DNA of 64,000 nt from Cytophagales bacterium (GTDB lineage: Bacteria > Bacteroidota > Bacteroidia > Cytophagales > Thermoflexibacteraceae), in NCBI GenBank assembly GCA_013299115.1, contig JAAFKA010000020.1:1-64000 (forward strand), read 5' to 3'. Within the stretch, counting starts at the first letter, position 1. Every line of letters begins with the position of its first letter. Of this stretch, positions 35,746 to 40,475 are shown one piece after another. The notes below the pieces were generated by a model, which saw only the letters and a list, made by a program, of their open reading frames with translations, did no database searches and was not told the DNA's origin. Made by a program: the position numbers and the translations under genes.

Positions 35746-36903
35746 TTACCAACTTGTGCTTTCTAAATCTTGATAAATTTTGTCAATTGGACTAATTTTA
35801 GAATGAATACTATCTTTGTAAATTTGTTCTACAATGGTTTTTATTTTGGTTGTAGTTTCTAAGACAGTTTCACCGAATTGGTTATTGATTTGCTTTTTAG
35901 CTATCTCTTGTTCTTTATCTGTTTTTGTTTTGGCATTTTGCAAGGCTTTTTCTTTCAAATACCAAAATTGATAGTTTACAATAGGCAATAAAAATTCTTC
36001 AAAAACCCAATGACCTTTGAAGTATAAAAATAAATCATTTTCGTCAATATTATGCGATGATTTGAGTTGTGCTATCTTTTTTTGCTTTTCAGTTTCATCA
36101 AGCAGTTGCCCAAACCCTTGTGTTATCTCTATATTTACAATAACATCTTTTGCACGTTTAGTAATTTCAGCAATTATATTTTCTTGAAAATTTACTAAAT
36201 CTGTTTGTAAATTTTTGTTATCATTTTGCATATTTTTGCAAAATAATTCCATTTCCATTACTTCTTTCTGTACTTTTTTCCCCACCAATGGTTGTAAATC
36301 TTTGTAATCATTCTCAAAAGCATATAACCAATAGCAAAAGAGAGAGGAAAGAGCAGTAGAAAAATCTTTAAAAAGTTGCTCAAAATCTATTGTATGTATA
36401 GCACCCAAAGAATATTTTGCAAATTCTTTATTTAAAAATTTACCAATACTGTTATAATTTTCTATGCTATATGCGTGGGTGTGAAAAATATAAGGTTGGT
36501 TGAGATACCAAACTTTTGGCTGATACAAATACTTACTATCTGCATCAACACAGATAATTAAACGTAAGTTTACACTTCTATACTTTGTAGATTCCTGATA
36601 AGTTAAACCTGCAAAACTCAAAAAGTTATCCTTAACAAAATCACTACCTGTGTCACAATCCTCATGATTGCTGTTTTCAGTCGTATTGCTAACATAATTT
36701 GTTGCCAAAGGATAAAAAGGTATGTATTTTCTGTTTAAATCTTTGTTTGCAAAAAATGTAAAAAAAACTTCACCCCAAAATTTTTGGTCGTCTTTATAAT
36801 CTTCATGAATTGCCACCACTCCATTATAAACATCTTGGAAAATCACTGAGGCAAGAAGTCCCTCTATTTGTTCTTTGCTGAATTTGCTTCTTTCCCTTGC
36901 CAT
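35746..36903 (-). CDS. DUF4435 (TOPRIM-like) protein, AriB-like partner
   Basis: The 385-residue product shows the TOPRIM-type pattern of DUF4435: a first strand VVAIHEDYKDDQKFW with a conserved Glu at 34, then LRLIICVDADSKYL with D120-x-D122, then HTHAYSIENYNSI (SIEN at 146-149). The C-terminal half is helical. In PARIS systems the DUF4435 nuclease AriB is held by the ATPase AriA and released on phage attack, when it degrades tRNA. Here it starts on the stop codon of the ATPase gene (TAATG), so they are tightly coupled. DUF4435 membership is judged by motif only. Confidence 0.7.
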   Translation of the reverse strand: MARERSKFSKEQIEGLLASVIFQDVYNGVVAIHEDYKDDQKFWGEVFFTFFANKDLNRKYIPFYPLATNYVSNTTENSNHEDCDTGSDFVKDNFLSFAGLTYQESTKYRSVNLRLIICVDADSKYLYQPKVWYLNQPYIFHTHAYSIENYNSIGKFLNKEFAKYSLGAIHTIDFEQLFKDFSTALSSLFCYWLYAFENDYKDLQPLVGKKVQKEVMEMELFCKNMQNDNKNLQTDLVNFQENIIAEITKRAKDVIVNIEITQGFGQLLDETEKQKKIAQLKSSHNIDENDLFLYFKGHWVFEEFLLPIVNYQFWYLKEKALQNAKTKTDKEQEIAKKQINNQFGETVLETTTKIKTIVEQIYKDSIHSKISPIDKIYQDLESTSW

Positions 36904-38342
36904 TATTTTTTGAATTTTAGTTTATTCAAATACAAATCGTTGGCATCTATACTATAATACAGACGCAATTTTTCTACTTCTTGGGCTTCTGCTCCGCTTT
37001 TTGCTTTGCCGAGCAAAGTGCTAAAAGTGATAATATCGGGATAGACTTTTTTCTCTTGCATTTTATCCAATACAAATTTACCTTCTTCTATATTTTCTAT
37101 TTTTTTCAACCAAATATTAAAAGTCAAAATATTGGGTTCTTGGTTATATTTTGTGATTTCCTCATACATTTTCTTTGCATCATCAAAAGACGTAGCTTTT
37201 GAAATAAAGGTAGTAAAAGTTACCACATCAGGCTGGTTGGCTTGGCTAAATTGTTGTTCTTTTTGCTGAAACTCACCTAATAACTTCGTAAATAAAGCAT
37301 AGTCAATGGAGTGAAAAGTTTGGTTCAATGCTTGATTGAAAACAAATAATCTACCTATTCCGTCTTTTTTGGGGTTATTATTTGCTACTTTATAAGCATA
37401 AATTTCCCAAAAATGTGCCGTATCTTGTTCTTGTGTGTATGTATGTGCAGGTTGAGGTGCAATAGGCTCGTCTGTCATAATTTCATTCATTCTGACAAAT
37501 TTGTTTGCCCAACCTTCAATAAACATAGAAGTAGAATGAGTAGCCATAATAATCTGACAATTTGGGTTGAGTTCCCGAATGGTACGTATCAATTTACGTT
37601 GCCAAGTAATGTGCAGAGAAATTTCGGGTTCGTCAAGGAGCAAAATAGTAGGTTTGTTGTCTTGCAATAAAACTGTGAGCAAAATCAAAAATAATTGCTT
37701 TTCGCCAGATGATAGTAATTCATAGCTTATCTCTTTATCTGTTTGATAATTGATAAGAAAAACAAACCTGTCGTTATCAAAATCTTTGGCTGTTTCTTTA
37801 AATAATTCCTTTATTTTTGCACTAAAAAGATTTATTTTAGCATAAATATTTTGTAGTTTTTCTGCAATTTCTGCTGTGCTAAGTTTTGTGTTTTTAAGAA
37901 TTTCATTAGTTTTTGAAGCAATACTTGATTTTTGGGTAACAAAATATTGTTTCATCATTTCTATTTTGGCATTAATAGAATAAATATTTTTGCTATTTTC
38001 TGTTTCAAAACTTCTTACCAATTCAATGTTTATCTGTTGTAAATTTGGTTCTTCTCTAAGGTTAGGATTAGTTGCCACTAATTGTTTTTCGTCTATGGTA
38101 ATGGTTGTATCGTCAAAAAAAACTAATTCCATTTTTGAAACACGAGCAAATTTCTTGTACTCTATTTCTTCTACTTTATTCTTGTGTCTAAGAGTTTCAT
38201 ATACCAAATCAAGCAAGGTAGATTTGCCACTGCCGTTAATACCTTCCAATATGTTTACGTCAGCATCAAGTTCCCAAACAATATTTTTGGTAATATTATT
38301 GATACTAAAATTTGTAATTTTTATTTCTTTAATCAATTTCAT
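36903..38342 (-). CDS. PARIS-like ATPase with C-terminal PPR-like repeats
   Basis: The product has 479 residues. The first 300 form an SMC/AAA_21 ATPase: Walker A GINGSGKST (34-42), signature LSSGEKQ (210-216), Walker B ILLLDEPE (233-240) and THS (268-270). After an intervening region come three consecutive repeats of 32-33 residues: PDVVTFTTFISKATSFDDAK from 371, PNILTFNIWLKKIENIEEG from 403 and PDIITFSTLLGKAKSGAEA from 435. They match the pentatricopeptide (PPR) pattern, with each unit ending Pro-Asp or Pro-Asn. PPR repeats bind RNA and are rare in bacteria. The partner gene is the DUF4435 protein. This ATPase/PPR combination is not one I recognise from described systems. Confidence 0.8.
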   Translation of the reverse strand: MKLIKEIKITNFSINNITKNIVWELDADVNILEGINGSGKSTLLDLVYETLRHKNKVEEIEYKKFARVSKMELVFFDDTTITIDEKQLVATNPNLREEPNLQQINIELVRSFETENSKNIYSINAKIEMMKQYFVTQKSSIASKTNEILKNTKLSTAEIAEKLQNIYAKINLFSAKIKELFKETAKDFDNDRFVFLINYQTDKEISYELLSSGEKQLFLILLTVLLQDNKPTILLLDEPEISLHITWQRKLIRTIRELNPNCQIIMATHSTSMFIEGWANKFVRMNEIMTDEPIAPQPAHTYTQEQDTAHFWEIYAYKVANNNPKKDGIGRLFVFNQALNQTFHSIDYALFTKLLGEFQQKEQQFSQANQPDVVTFTTFISKATSFDDAKKMYEEITKYNQEPNILTFNIWLKKIENIEEGKFVLDKMQEKKVYPDIITFSTLLGKAKSGAEAQEVEKLRLYYSIDANDLYLNKLKFKK

Positions 38343-38669: not shown

Positions 38670-40475
38670 TTATTCAATTTTCAATGCACTCACATCTATA
38701 TATAAGTTACTAACTTTGTCTATGATTGCTTGCAAGGCTTTATGTGTTGAACTATAATCACGGGTCAAAAAAGTTTCAGGTACATCAAGTCCGAAGGTTT
38801 TGTTTATATTTTTTACTAACTTGATTTGTTGAATATTACTTGTAGGGTATTTTATTAAATTGTCTGCAAACCATTTTTTTATTATTTCTTGTTTTTGTTC
38901 TATAATTGCTTTGGTAATCTTAGCTTCTCTAACTAACAATTTATATAACCAAATATTAACAAATATGTCTATATGCGCCAACCCATACATCTGTGTATAA
39001 TATGTTTTTGATTTTCCTAATTGTATAAAATACAATAAATATAATTGACTATAAATTGGAGAATTTACATCTCCATTAAATAGCTTATGTAAACTGTGCT
39101 TTGAGTTGTTGGTGGCATTGAAAATATCCTTTAAAATATCCTCACTTGACATATTTGGACATTCTAAAAATGTTCTGTACCAATTTACCAACAAATATTC
39201 ACTACTAATTTGGTGTTGAAAATCTGTATTCGTAAAAGTTTCACCCTGTTTTGTCAAGTAGCCAATGCCTTTGTTTGCAAAAAATTCTTTGGTATAAACA
39301 TTAAATTTTTTGTTGCTCAATTTGTCTTTAAACCAAATAGCACTTTGCGTATTGGTGGCATCTGTTATCAAATCTATGAGTTCTTGGTCTTGGGTTTCAT
39401 AGAGTTTTACAGTCAAATAAACATCTTCCAAACTTTCTTTGTCTTTCAAATATTGTTGATAAACCAAATAAGAAGTTTGTAAACCATTGACAATCACAGG
39501 ATTTTCGCAAGGAATGACGTATTTTCCTAATTGTGTGGCTTGTGGCACAGTAAATTTTGAGCAGATAATAGTTAAATCATTGCTTAGAAATTGCAAATAC
39601 AGAGCTTGCGTTTCGGAGGCTAAGGTTTGTGCTATTTTTTCGTTGGTGCTGTTGTCTTTGCCAAGAAAACCCCTAATATTTTCGGCAAAAATCTTTTCAA
39701 TACTTCCATTGGTTGCTTTTTCCAACTCAAATAATTCGCACAATTCTAAGGCTTTCAACCGAAACAATAGGGCTTTTACATTCAAAATAGCAAAGCTAAT
39801 TAAAGCCTGCGTATCAGATTTGGCAGTAATGTTGGAGGGGGCTGGTTTAAAAGCAAATTCTACCTTTTTGCGTTTGTATTCTAATTTTATAAAATCATAA
39901 ATACGATTAAATAAATCGTGAATATCCCAAATTTCAAACTCATTAGGTTTGTGAAATTCTTGGAATAAACGTGAGTTTTCTTGGCTGTTTTTATTTCCAT
40001 TAAACACAAAATATAAGCAAGATGGAATTATTTTAGTGGCTGTAATGCTATCATATTCTTTGATTTTATGTTTTAAACCTGTTGCATTTTTTTTCGTTCC
40101 TTTAACGAAAATACTATCAAAATCATTTTTAAATTTTTCTAATTCATTTTGACTTAGGTTAGCCTGTCCAAATTTTTTAGAATTTTTACATTGAAAAACT
40201 TGCATTTTGGGCTTACCATTATCTTCACTAAAATAAATACCGTCTAAACCTCCGTCACTATCGTCAATAATAGCTGCTGTCATATAGACTTCATCTATGC
40301 TTTTATCTAAAATAACCGACATAGCAAAGATTTCAAAAGCTGTGTTTAATGCTTTTTCCTCTGCTTTTTCTTGTGAAATATTTTGTTTACTTTTCAGCAA
40401 TTCAACCAAATCTAATTGCTTAACTATTCTTTCCAAATAAGATTGAATAAACAAAATTCGGTTATCGTTATACAT
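38670..40475 (-). CDS. AIPR-family abortive infection protein with restriction-type nuclease fold
   Basis: The product has 601 residues. N-terminal IIDDSDGGLDGIYFSEDNGK (D78) followed by MQVFQCKNSKKF (Q95, K97) looks like a PD-(D/E)xK nuclease core. The middle has the AIPR signature: KIFAENIRGFLGKDNSTNEK and then NDLTIICSK, ENPVIVNGLQTSYLVYQQYL and DATNTQSAIWFKD. AIPR proteins are linked to phage resistance. It is a single-gene cassette with no methylase. It is bracketed by 130-bp direct repeats (38376-38506 and 40495-40624), suggesting arrival by recombination. Frame and motifs are intact. Confidence 0.88.
   Translation of the reverse strand: MYNDNRILFIQSYLERIVKQLDLVELLKSKQNISQEKAEEKALNTAFEIFAMSVILDKSIDEVYMTAAIIDDSDGGLDGIYFSEDNGKPKMQVFQCKNSKKFGQANLSQNELEKFKNDFDSIFVKGTKKNATGLKHKIKEYDSITATKIIPSCLYFVFNGNKNSQENSRLFQEFHKPNEFEIWDIHDLFNRIYDFIKLEYKRKKVEFAFKPAPSNITAKSDTQALISFAILNVKALLFRLKALELCELFELEKATNGSIEKIFAENIRGFLGKDNSTNEKIAQTLASETQALYLQFLSNDLTIICSKFTVPQATQLGKYVIPCENPVIVNGLQTSYLVYQQYLKDKESLEDVYLTVKLYETQDQELIDLITDATNTQSAIWFKDKLSNKKFNVYTKEFFANKGIGYLTKQGETFTNTDFQHQISSEYLLVNWYRTFLECPNMSSEDILKDIFNATNNSKHSLHKLFNGDVNSPIYSQLYLLYFIQLGKSKTYYTQMYGLAHIDIFVNIWLYKLLVREAKITKAIIEQKQEIIKKWFADNLIKYPTSNIQQIKLVKNINKTFGLDVPETFLTRDYSSTHKALQAIIDKVSNLYIDVSALKIE

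Follow-up and report, generated by a model that had tools for sequence, protein, structure and literature searches.

A PARIS-type ATPase–DUF4435 gene pair of a Cytophagales bacterium with predicted pentatricopeptide repeats on its ATPase

The window analyzed here is a 64,000-nucleotide stretch from a Cytophagales bacterium (assembly GCA_013299115.1, contig JAAFKA010000020.1, positions 1–64,000). At 35746–38342, it carries a gene pair that consists of an AriA-like ATPase and an AriB-like DUF4435 protein, the two-gene plan of PARIS. The last ~150 residues of the ATPase are pentatricopeptide repeats (PPRs) by profile, and sequence and model together indicate that the ATPase C-terminus is a PPR domain with a predicted helix-pair solenoid. 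What could a PPR domain contribute to a PARIS-type ATPase? Judging from sequence, modeling and analogy, we propose, with belief and doubt in equal measure, that the locus is a PARIS-type toxin-antitoxin defence pair whose sensor gained a PPR module that would bind single-stranded RNA (ssRNA) with a fixed, short specificity and thereby gate the nuclease.

The PPR domain and the PARIS-type pair

The PPR assignment is based primarily on sequence profiles. PPR_2 matches residues 371–413 of the ATPase (6.5e-10; 39.4 bits against a cut-off of 30), PPR_3 matches the C-terminus (1.1e-7; 32.3 bits against a cut-off of 25), and PPR_2 is detected at E ≤ 0.001 in all 11 members of A6, an alignment of homologues of the ATPase-PPR protein. 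In a phmmer search of the PDB with the ATPase, designer PPR proteins come out on top, led by 5i9f_A at 2.4e-45, a value summed over its many repeats, the best single stretch being ~1e-8. An AlphaFold2 model built on A6 (mean pLDDT, the predicted local distance difference test score, 80.2) folds the C-terminal part into four and a half helix pairs, with block means of 83–95 except for one of 71. Model residues 307–479 align with the single-stranded DNA (ssDNA)-bound designer protein cPPR-Telo1 (5orq_A; VIA Z 13.5, 163 residues aligned, 4.9 Å), and residues 310–479 align with the plastid PPR protein PAP2 (8w9z_E; VIA Z 13.6). Since a Z of ~13.5 barely exceeds that of common arrangements for helical repeats, the profiles carry the assignment and the fold supports it. 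The initial annotation had recognized three PPR-like units beginning at P371, P403 and P435. Their exact 32-residue spacing and their PPR identity hold, whereas the array itself is longer, with a degenerate unit before them (R0) and a half unit after (R4), making four and a half units in total. Two outcomes had been named there as fatal to the assignment, a model without a helix-pair solenoid and profiles that point to a non-PPR family; neither was obtained.

The window units resemble those of P-class and designer PPR proteins (PPR10, dPPR and cPPR-Telo1) in their helix pairs, their code residues at the fifth and last positions and a Lys13-like contact, but they are bacterial, are joined to an ABC-type ATPase and depart from the P-class unit length of 35 residues. 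Units R1–R3 have 32 residues each, with the shortfall located in helix A. This length is nearer to that of S units (31–32 residues; PMC13041630, in part), although the window units are shortened in helix A.

The remainder of the ATPase is AriA-like. It matches AAA_21 (5e-24), AAA_15 (1.1e-15) and, over residues 5–290, the PADLOC AriA profile PDLC04164 (1.2e-53), which is found in 11 of 11 ATPases of the family. Model residues 1–291 fit AriA chain 8ux9_B best (VIA Z 20.8, 272 residues aligned, 3.5 Å), and Foldseek matches the model to AriA chain 8v47_H at 3.3e-10. The Walker A and Walker B motifs of the initial annotation are both present, together with an ABC signature that it had not listed.

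The partner matches DUF4435 (PF14491; 7e-8, 32.9 bits against a cut-off of 27) and PADLOC AriB (3.5e-13). It contains the Toprim-type Glu34 and the D120xD122 motif, in agreement with the initial description of a TOPRIM-like protein, and the Glu and DxD residues recur in 12 of 12 partners examined; a stricter first pattern found the Glu motif in just five of the 12 because of a one-residue indel. The AriB profile PDLC02983 matches all 10 partners scanned, one of which belongs to a PPR-less pair. The partner of a second ATPase-PPR gene of the window genome (C26) is matched by PADLOC AriB only, with no DUF4435 match at E ≤ 0.1. Structural comparison is less telling for the partner: its model has a mean pLDDT of 71.4 with a poorly predicted Toprim core, AriB chains rank first at a Foldseek E of 0.57 and a Z of 7.1 (209 residues aligned, 5.3 Å), and a PDB sequence search with the profile of the partner alignment (A7, from which the truncated partners of loci L029 and L033 were left out) gave no AriB among its matches.

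PARIS is recognized by Rousset et al. (PMC9122126) as an adjacent AAA_15 or AAA_21 ATPase and DUF4435 protein with cut-offs of 32/27/27 bits. The window pair scores 58.6 bits for AAA_15, 86.3 bits for AAA_21 and 32.9 bits for DUF4435, which, with the PADLOC matches, bears out the AriA/AriB plan first suggested for it. Re-reading of the sequence also confirmed both open reading frames (ORFs), their coordinates and the overlap between the ATPase stop and the DUF4435 start, which is a minus-strand TAATG at 36901–36905 with one base common to both codons. The pair has in common with PARIS of the E. coli B185 type the adjacent AAA_21/AAA_15 ATPase and DUF4435 Toprim genes, the AriA-like ATPase body and the Toprim residues of the partner. 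It differs in that the ATPase body of the window protein has fewer residues than E. coli AriA and is followed by ~190 C-terminal residues with the four and a half PPR units, whereas the solved AriA chain used in the alignment ends with the ATPase body (chain 3–444 of 464). Membership in the Retron/Septu group was considered and rejected: PtuA has a related ATPase body (PADLOC PtuA up to 4.9e-24; VIA Z 16–18) but is weaker than AriA in both comparisons, and the window partner matches only DUF4435/AriB and not the HNH protein PtuB.

Table 1. Features of the ATPase–DUF4435 pair (window coordinates)
Feature	Position	Strand	Basis
AriA-like ATPase with C-terminal PPR domain, 479 aa	36903–38342	−	AAA_21, PPR_2, PADLOC AriA PDLC04164, AlphaFold model
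AriB-like DUF4435 Toprim-type protein, 385 aa	35746–36903	−	PF14491, PADLOC AriB, Toprim residues
ATPase domain, residues 1–290	37473–38342	−	VIA alignment of model residues 1–291 to AriA
Walker A GINGSGKST, residues 34–42	38217–38243	−	Sequence; invariant positions in A6
ABC signature LSSGEKQ, residues 210–216	37695–37715	−	Invariant in 11/11 rows of A6
Walker B ILLLDEPE, residues 233–240	37623–37646	−	D237, E238, P239 and E240 invariant in A6
Degenerate PPR unit R0, residues 332–372, code N336/D372 (ND, U)	37227–37349	−	Helices 328–342, 348–362
PPR unit R1, residues 373–404, code T377/N404 (TN, A)	37131–37226	−	Helices 373–381, 386–398; PPR_2
PPR unit R2, residues 405–436, code N409/D436 (ND, U)	37035–37130	−	Helices 405–412, 418–430
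PPR unit R3, residues 437–468, code S441/N468 (SN, A)	36939–37034	−	Helices 437–445, 450–462
Half PPR unit R4, helix A only, residues 469–479	36906–36938	−	Helix 469–478

An AIPR/AbiU-type gene at 38670–40475 on the minus strand (PF10592, 2.1e-26; PADLOC AbiU, 7.8e-24) is the next gene upstream of the pair, 327 bases away, and is a second defence-like gene in its vicinity.

Conservation of the base-reading residues

Each unit of a PPR protein recognizes a single base through its fifth and last residues: U by the dyad ND, C by NS, A by SN, G by TD and either U or C by NN, with TN and SD interpreted as readers of A and G, respectively (PMC4837458; PMC13041630, in part). The dyads of R0–R3 in the window ATPase, ND TN ND SN, decode as 5'-UAUA-3', which includes the A and the U first assigned to R1 and R2. 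These residues are nearly fixed across 13 full-length homologues whose identity falls to ~33%: 99 of 104 code residues agree with ND TN ND SN, eight proteins carry the exact set, and the other five each deviate by one residue (TT, GN, TS and IN at R1; NN at R2). Both S and N of R3 occur in 13/13 proteins; R2 has N in 13/13 and D in 12/13, and R1 has T in 11/13 and N in 11/13. The degenerate R0 is otherwise barely PPR-like, and its two code residues, N336 and D372, are its sole invariant ones (11/11 in A6, and also in the proteins L102 and L103). The latter two were found after the pattern had been noticed, and both carry the exact set; they are close kin of known cyanobacterial members, L102 being ~90% identical to two of them.

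Invariance among the 11 proteins of A6 is concentrated at the code: 5/8 code positions against 22/148 positions in the region (hypergeometric p 0.002), 3/5 against 6/103 upstream of R3 (p 0.001) and 2/4 against 4/73 in R0–R1 (p 0.013), p values that were computed after the pattern was noticed and that treat kin (three Dolichospermum-type proteins and two HSG2 copies) as independent. Val2 and Lys13 also touch RNA in PPRs, and Lys13 of designer PPRs contacts phosphate (PMC4837458; PMC13041630, in part). The position that we aligned with Lys13, a presumed phosphate contact, is K or R in R1–R4 of all 13 proteins (52/52 cells), and position 2 usually holds a hydrophobic residue, the exceptions being K, H, T and R.

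Possible roles of the PPR domain

In known PARIS, a hexamer of AriA retains AriB, a tRNA-cutting nuclease, until a phage protein triggers its release (PMC11455837; PMC12409363, in part). By analogy, the most economical reading of the window pair would be the same machine gated by nucleic acid on the PPR arm. The AriA-like ATPase is expected to keep the DUF4435 Toprim nuclease inactive, as AriA does. The PPR solenoid would bind ssRNA (or ssDNA) with a fixed short preference for 5'-UAUA-3' (loosely YAYA), as the PPR and PARIS literature suggests. Such binding, perhaps occurring simultaneously on a number of PPR arms within an AriA-like oligomer, may change the ATPase and free the nuclease, which could then stop translation by cutting RNA, probably tRNA, and lead to abortive infection. 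A fixed specificity suggests a constant ligand, either a host RNA whose state shifts during infection or a short sequence that is frequent in phage transcripts. At two loci outside the window, a truncated partner (L029, 2650–3123; L033, 6377–6649) stands next to an ATPase-PPR gene that is intact, a pattern to be expected from the decay of a toxic effector whose keeper is retained.

Several observations weigh against nucleic acid gating, in addition to the post hoc character of the p values given above. The known triggers of PARIS are proteins (PMC11455837; PMC12409363, in part). An array that reads four bases leaves little room for useful specificity, U-A-U-A occurs often in AT-rich RNA, and R1 is less fixed than the other units, holding four of the five code deviations. 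Asn5 and Asp35 are also PPR consensus residues, and thus their conservation need not mean base reading. Neither of two candidate ligands was supported. TATA is not in excess in the 100-base leaders of 13 ATPase genes (17 seen against 16.6 expected from dinucleotide shuffles), and own-leader RNA was therefore rejected as a general target. Strict UAUA occurs in 0 of 34 distinct host tRNA anticodon loops (from 40 tRNAs found, with Ile(GAU) and Ala(UGC) not among them), and a strict tRNA-anticodon target was likewise rejected.

The consensus status of Asn5 and Asp35 also favors a rather unlikely alternative, in which the solenoid mediates protein contacts, as TPR or Sel1 repeats do in other bacterial sensors: it would bind a protein of the phage or a partner protein, or give the oligomer its shape, with the code residues kept for folding. 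The helical repeats of STAND sensors bind phage proteins, and the Avs5 authors place its PPRs in that class (PMC12931631, in part). Furthermore, the last repeat (PDIITFSTLLGKA) is fixed far beyond its code positions and looks like a docking surface. However, invariance falls on code positions outside R3 as well, R1 and R3 keep T/S-N while R0 and R2 keep N-D with a consistency that folding alone would not ask for, and the Lys13-like contact is K or R in every unit compared.

We also consider it unlikely that the PPR domain is a substrate arm that binds the RNA cut by the Toprim nuclease, for instance a tRNA, while the ATPase body senses a phage protein as the trigger. AriB is a tRNase (PMC12409363, in part), a specificity fixed across phyla suits a conserved host RNA better than a variable phage RNA, and the loose YAYA motif occurs in 5/34 host anticodon loops, namely those of tRNAs with the anticodon CAU and of Val(UAC). 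On the other hand, strict UAUA is absent from the recovered loops, and the published AriB substrates Lys(UUU), Thr(UGU) and Asn(GUU) lack the motif in the loops of this host. Because the nuclease of known PARIS acts after it leaves AriA (PMC12409363, in part), an AriA-borne arm would not follow it. Autoregulation, in which the PPR domain binds the mRNA of its own pair and sets expression without a sensing role, is very improbable: the leader of the window gene carries UAUAUAUAGAUAUA shortly before the start codon, but TATA is unenriched over the 13 leaders, and the best single case (L028) reaches merely 0.05, uncorrected.

Distribution of the family and other bacterial PPR proteins

The ATPase-PPR family comprises 13 full-length distinct proteins, six from Bacteroidota, two from Desulfobacterota (HSG2) and five from Cyanobacteriota. 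A 103-residue fragment (L034) was left out, and the loci L024 and L027 are the same, as are L035 and L014, and were each counted once. A scan of genome contigs for the PPR tail gave nine loci in Cytophagales and other Bacteroidota, Desulfobacterales HSG2 (two copies) and Nostocales, and profile searches added two loci from the window genome (C45 and C26) and two from the cyanobacterial sample (G799 and G925). Full-length matches occur in 1/395 Bacteroidota genomes (the window genome itself, with three loci), in 4/244 genomes sampled around a Nostocales genome (two of them already in the PPR-tail scan) and in 1/247 genomes around HSG2 (the HSG2 genome itself). In an order-level sample of 390 genomes, PPR_2 detects the ATPase-PPR form in three, and a fourth (G148) probably holds L028. 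The HSG2 and cyanobacterial proteins are 71–75% identical to L103 and between groups across phyla, which points to horizontal transfer. At one HSG2 locus, the intact gene is immediately preceded by an incomplete second copy of the ATPase N-terminus (L029, 910–1209).

The PPR tail behaves as a module. The window genome holds three ATPase-PPR pairs together with one AriAB-like pair (C33) whose ATPase ends at residue 305 without PPRs, and compact PPR-less pairs are also found in other Bacteroidota genomes. Such PPR-less pairs (C33, G610, G618, G769 and G933) belong to the same ATPase clade by profile, have ATPases of ~284–318 residues with a DUF4435 neighbor in the pairs read, and terminate at the point at which a PPR tail would start. 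In a tree built from 20 ATPase bodies, one change between the PPR and PPR-less forms is needed. This single change and the coexistence of both forms argue for a module that was probably gained once, although the branch in question has weak support (67/26) and the tree contains several long branches. On mobile elements, no relative of the tail was confirmed among 203 pattern matches in viral contigs, the phage matches (three records) touch only the ATPase part, as do the 20 plasmid matches listed of 36 records, and none of the 36 covers 80%.

PPRs are held to be typical of eukaryotes, and one source speaks of their absence from bacteria (PMC4029402). They are indeed rare, as initially stated, with PPR_2 in 9/390 genomes of the order and two of the matched loci false; both PPR_2 matches of G184 proved to be TPR-containing cyclase-like proteins. 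A six-frame PPR_2 search is a poor census, as it found 0/194 genomes of the cyanobacterial sample, though G772 holds an ATPase-PPR gene. A literature search, which saw part of the longer result lists and had subscription papers and bioRxiv mostly outside its coverage, returned no report of PPRs on an AriA-type ATPase. PPRs are mentioned in the Avs5 homologue PaAvs5-3 (PMC12931631, in part). Avs5 and other STAND sensors have in common with the window ATPase a C-terminal repeat domain on an immune NTPase, reported as PPR in PaAvs5-3, but Avs5 unites STAND and a Sir2 effector in one protein, unlike the two-gene pair of the window.

A search for homologues with more repeats had been suggested initially; none was found within the ATPase family, whose four-and-a-half-unit plan is constant in the 13 proteins collected, and longer arrays occur only in other PPR proteins. 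Most of the other PPR_2 matches from the order and phylum samples belong to stand-alone PPR proteins, and some of these adjoin NTPase genes; these arrays lie beside NACHT-like genes or carry other N-termini. NACHT is above the Pfam cut-off next to the PPR protein of G061 (3.5e-10) and just below or below it next to those of G021 (7.9e-6) and G148 (2.2e-4). In G148, the NACHT-like gene, the PPR protein and a TmtA-type defence gene (4.1e-122) stand in a row on one strand (L091, 4930–13127). The G061 protein ends in an S1-like RNA-binding match (1.9e-6) in which no stretch passes alone.

Six arrays were segmented (G452, G536, G061, C67, G148 and G021), of which four were column-pair counted; G093, G136 C265 and G516 were read without segmentation. 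G452 has 11 units of 32 residues with the dyads NN SD ND NN SN NN ND SD SN NN SD, all canonical, and G536 has six with TN SN TD TD ND ND. In both, the code positions are among the few variable columns, and just 3/496 and 5/496 column pairs, respectively, do as well. Code positions as hot spots in every array were rejected, because 174/496 column pairs in G061 and 177/528 in C67 do as well. In G148 (three units), both code positions are invariant, and in G021, variation at position 5 is below average and several dyads (NT, NI and HL) are non-canonical. In G452, position 4 is as variable as position 5 and changes together with it, and the DNA suggests block copying, so the changes are not independent. 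With two arrays showing the effect and four not, re-lettering of arrays is suggested, not established.

The G452 protein (L087, 868–3150; 761 residues) contains near-identical PPR units with all four canonical code classes and an N-terminus without a convincing Pfam match; a nucleotide-cyclase N-terminus, an impression from reading only, had no Pfam support and was dropped. Upstream of it lies a 226-residue ORF of unknown type (L087, 116–793). Decoding of the 11 PPR units gives the target YGUYAYUGAYG, which is perfectly mirrored as an inverted repeat about its centre (5/5 mirror pairs), a property noticed post hoc and matched by 1.3% of shuffled repeat orders. At L090, 4801–7697 (C67), the window genome also encodes a 528-residue PPR protein with near-identical 33-residue units, preceded by a gene that looks by eye like a P-loop ATPase and has no Pfam match. 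A hypothetical protein of 35-residue plant-type PPR units on a record described as a Rahnella aquatilis plasmid from rice-wheat soil (CP036489.1, 37717–39927; L099) looks like plant DNA in the assembly.

Beyond the window pair, we tentatively entertain a broader view, which we consider somewhat less probable than its negation, that PPR repeats are a general protein-coded nucleic acid sensor of bacterial immunity. They would serve as a fixed short reader on PARIS-type ATPases and as separate, extendable arrays beside NACHT-like NTPases or attached to other N-terminal domains, with near-identical 32-residue units re-lettered at their base-reading positions as in TAL effectors. The UAUA prediction, with its four swappable dyads, is directly testable with one purified domain, and the compact units of 32 residues from bacteria might find use as RNA-binding tools. 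Given that PPRs are held typical of eukaryotes, the finding bears on the origin of PPR proteins and of their code. A PARIS sensor with a base-reading domain would be an immune ATPase tuned to nucleic acid, unlike the protein-sensing known PARIS. If the broader view is true, bacteria would own an RNA-reading code once assigned to eukaryotic organelles and would use it to detect foreign or damaged RNA.

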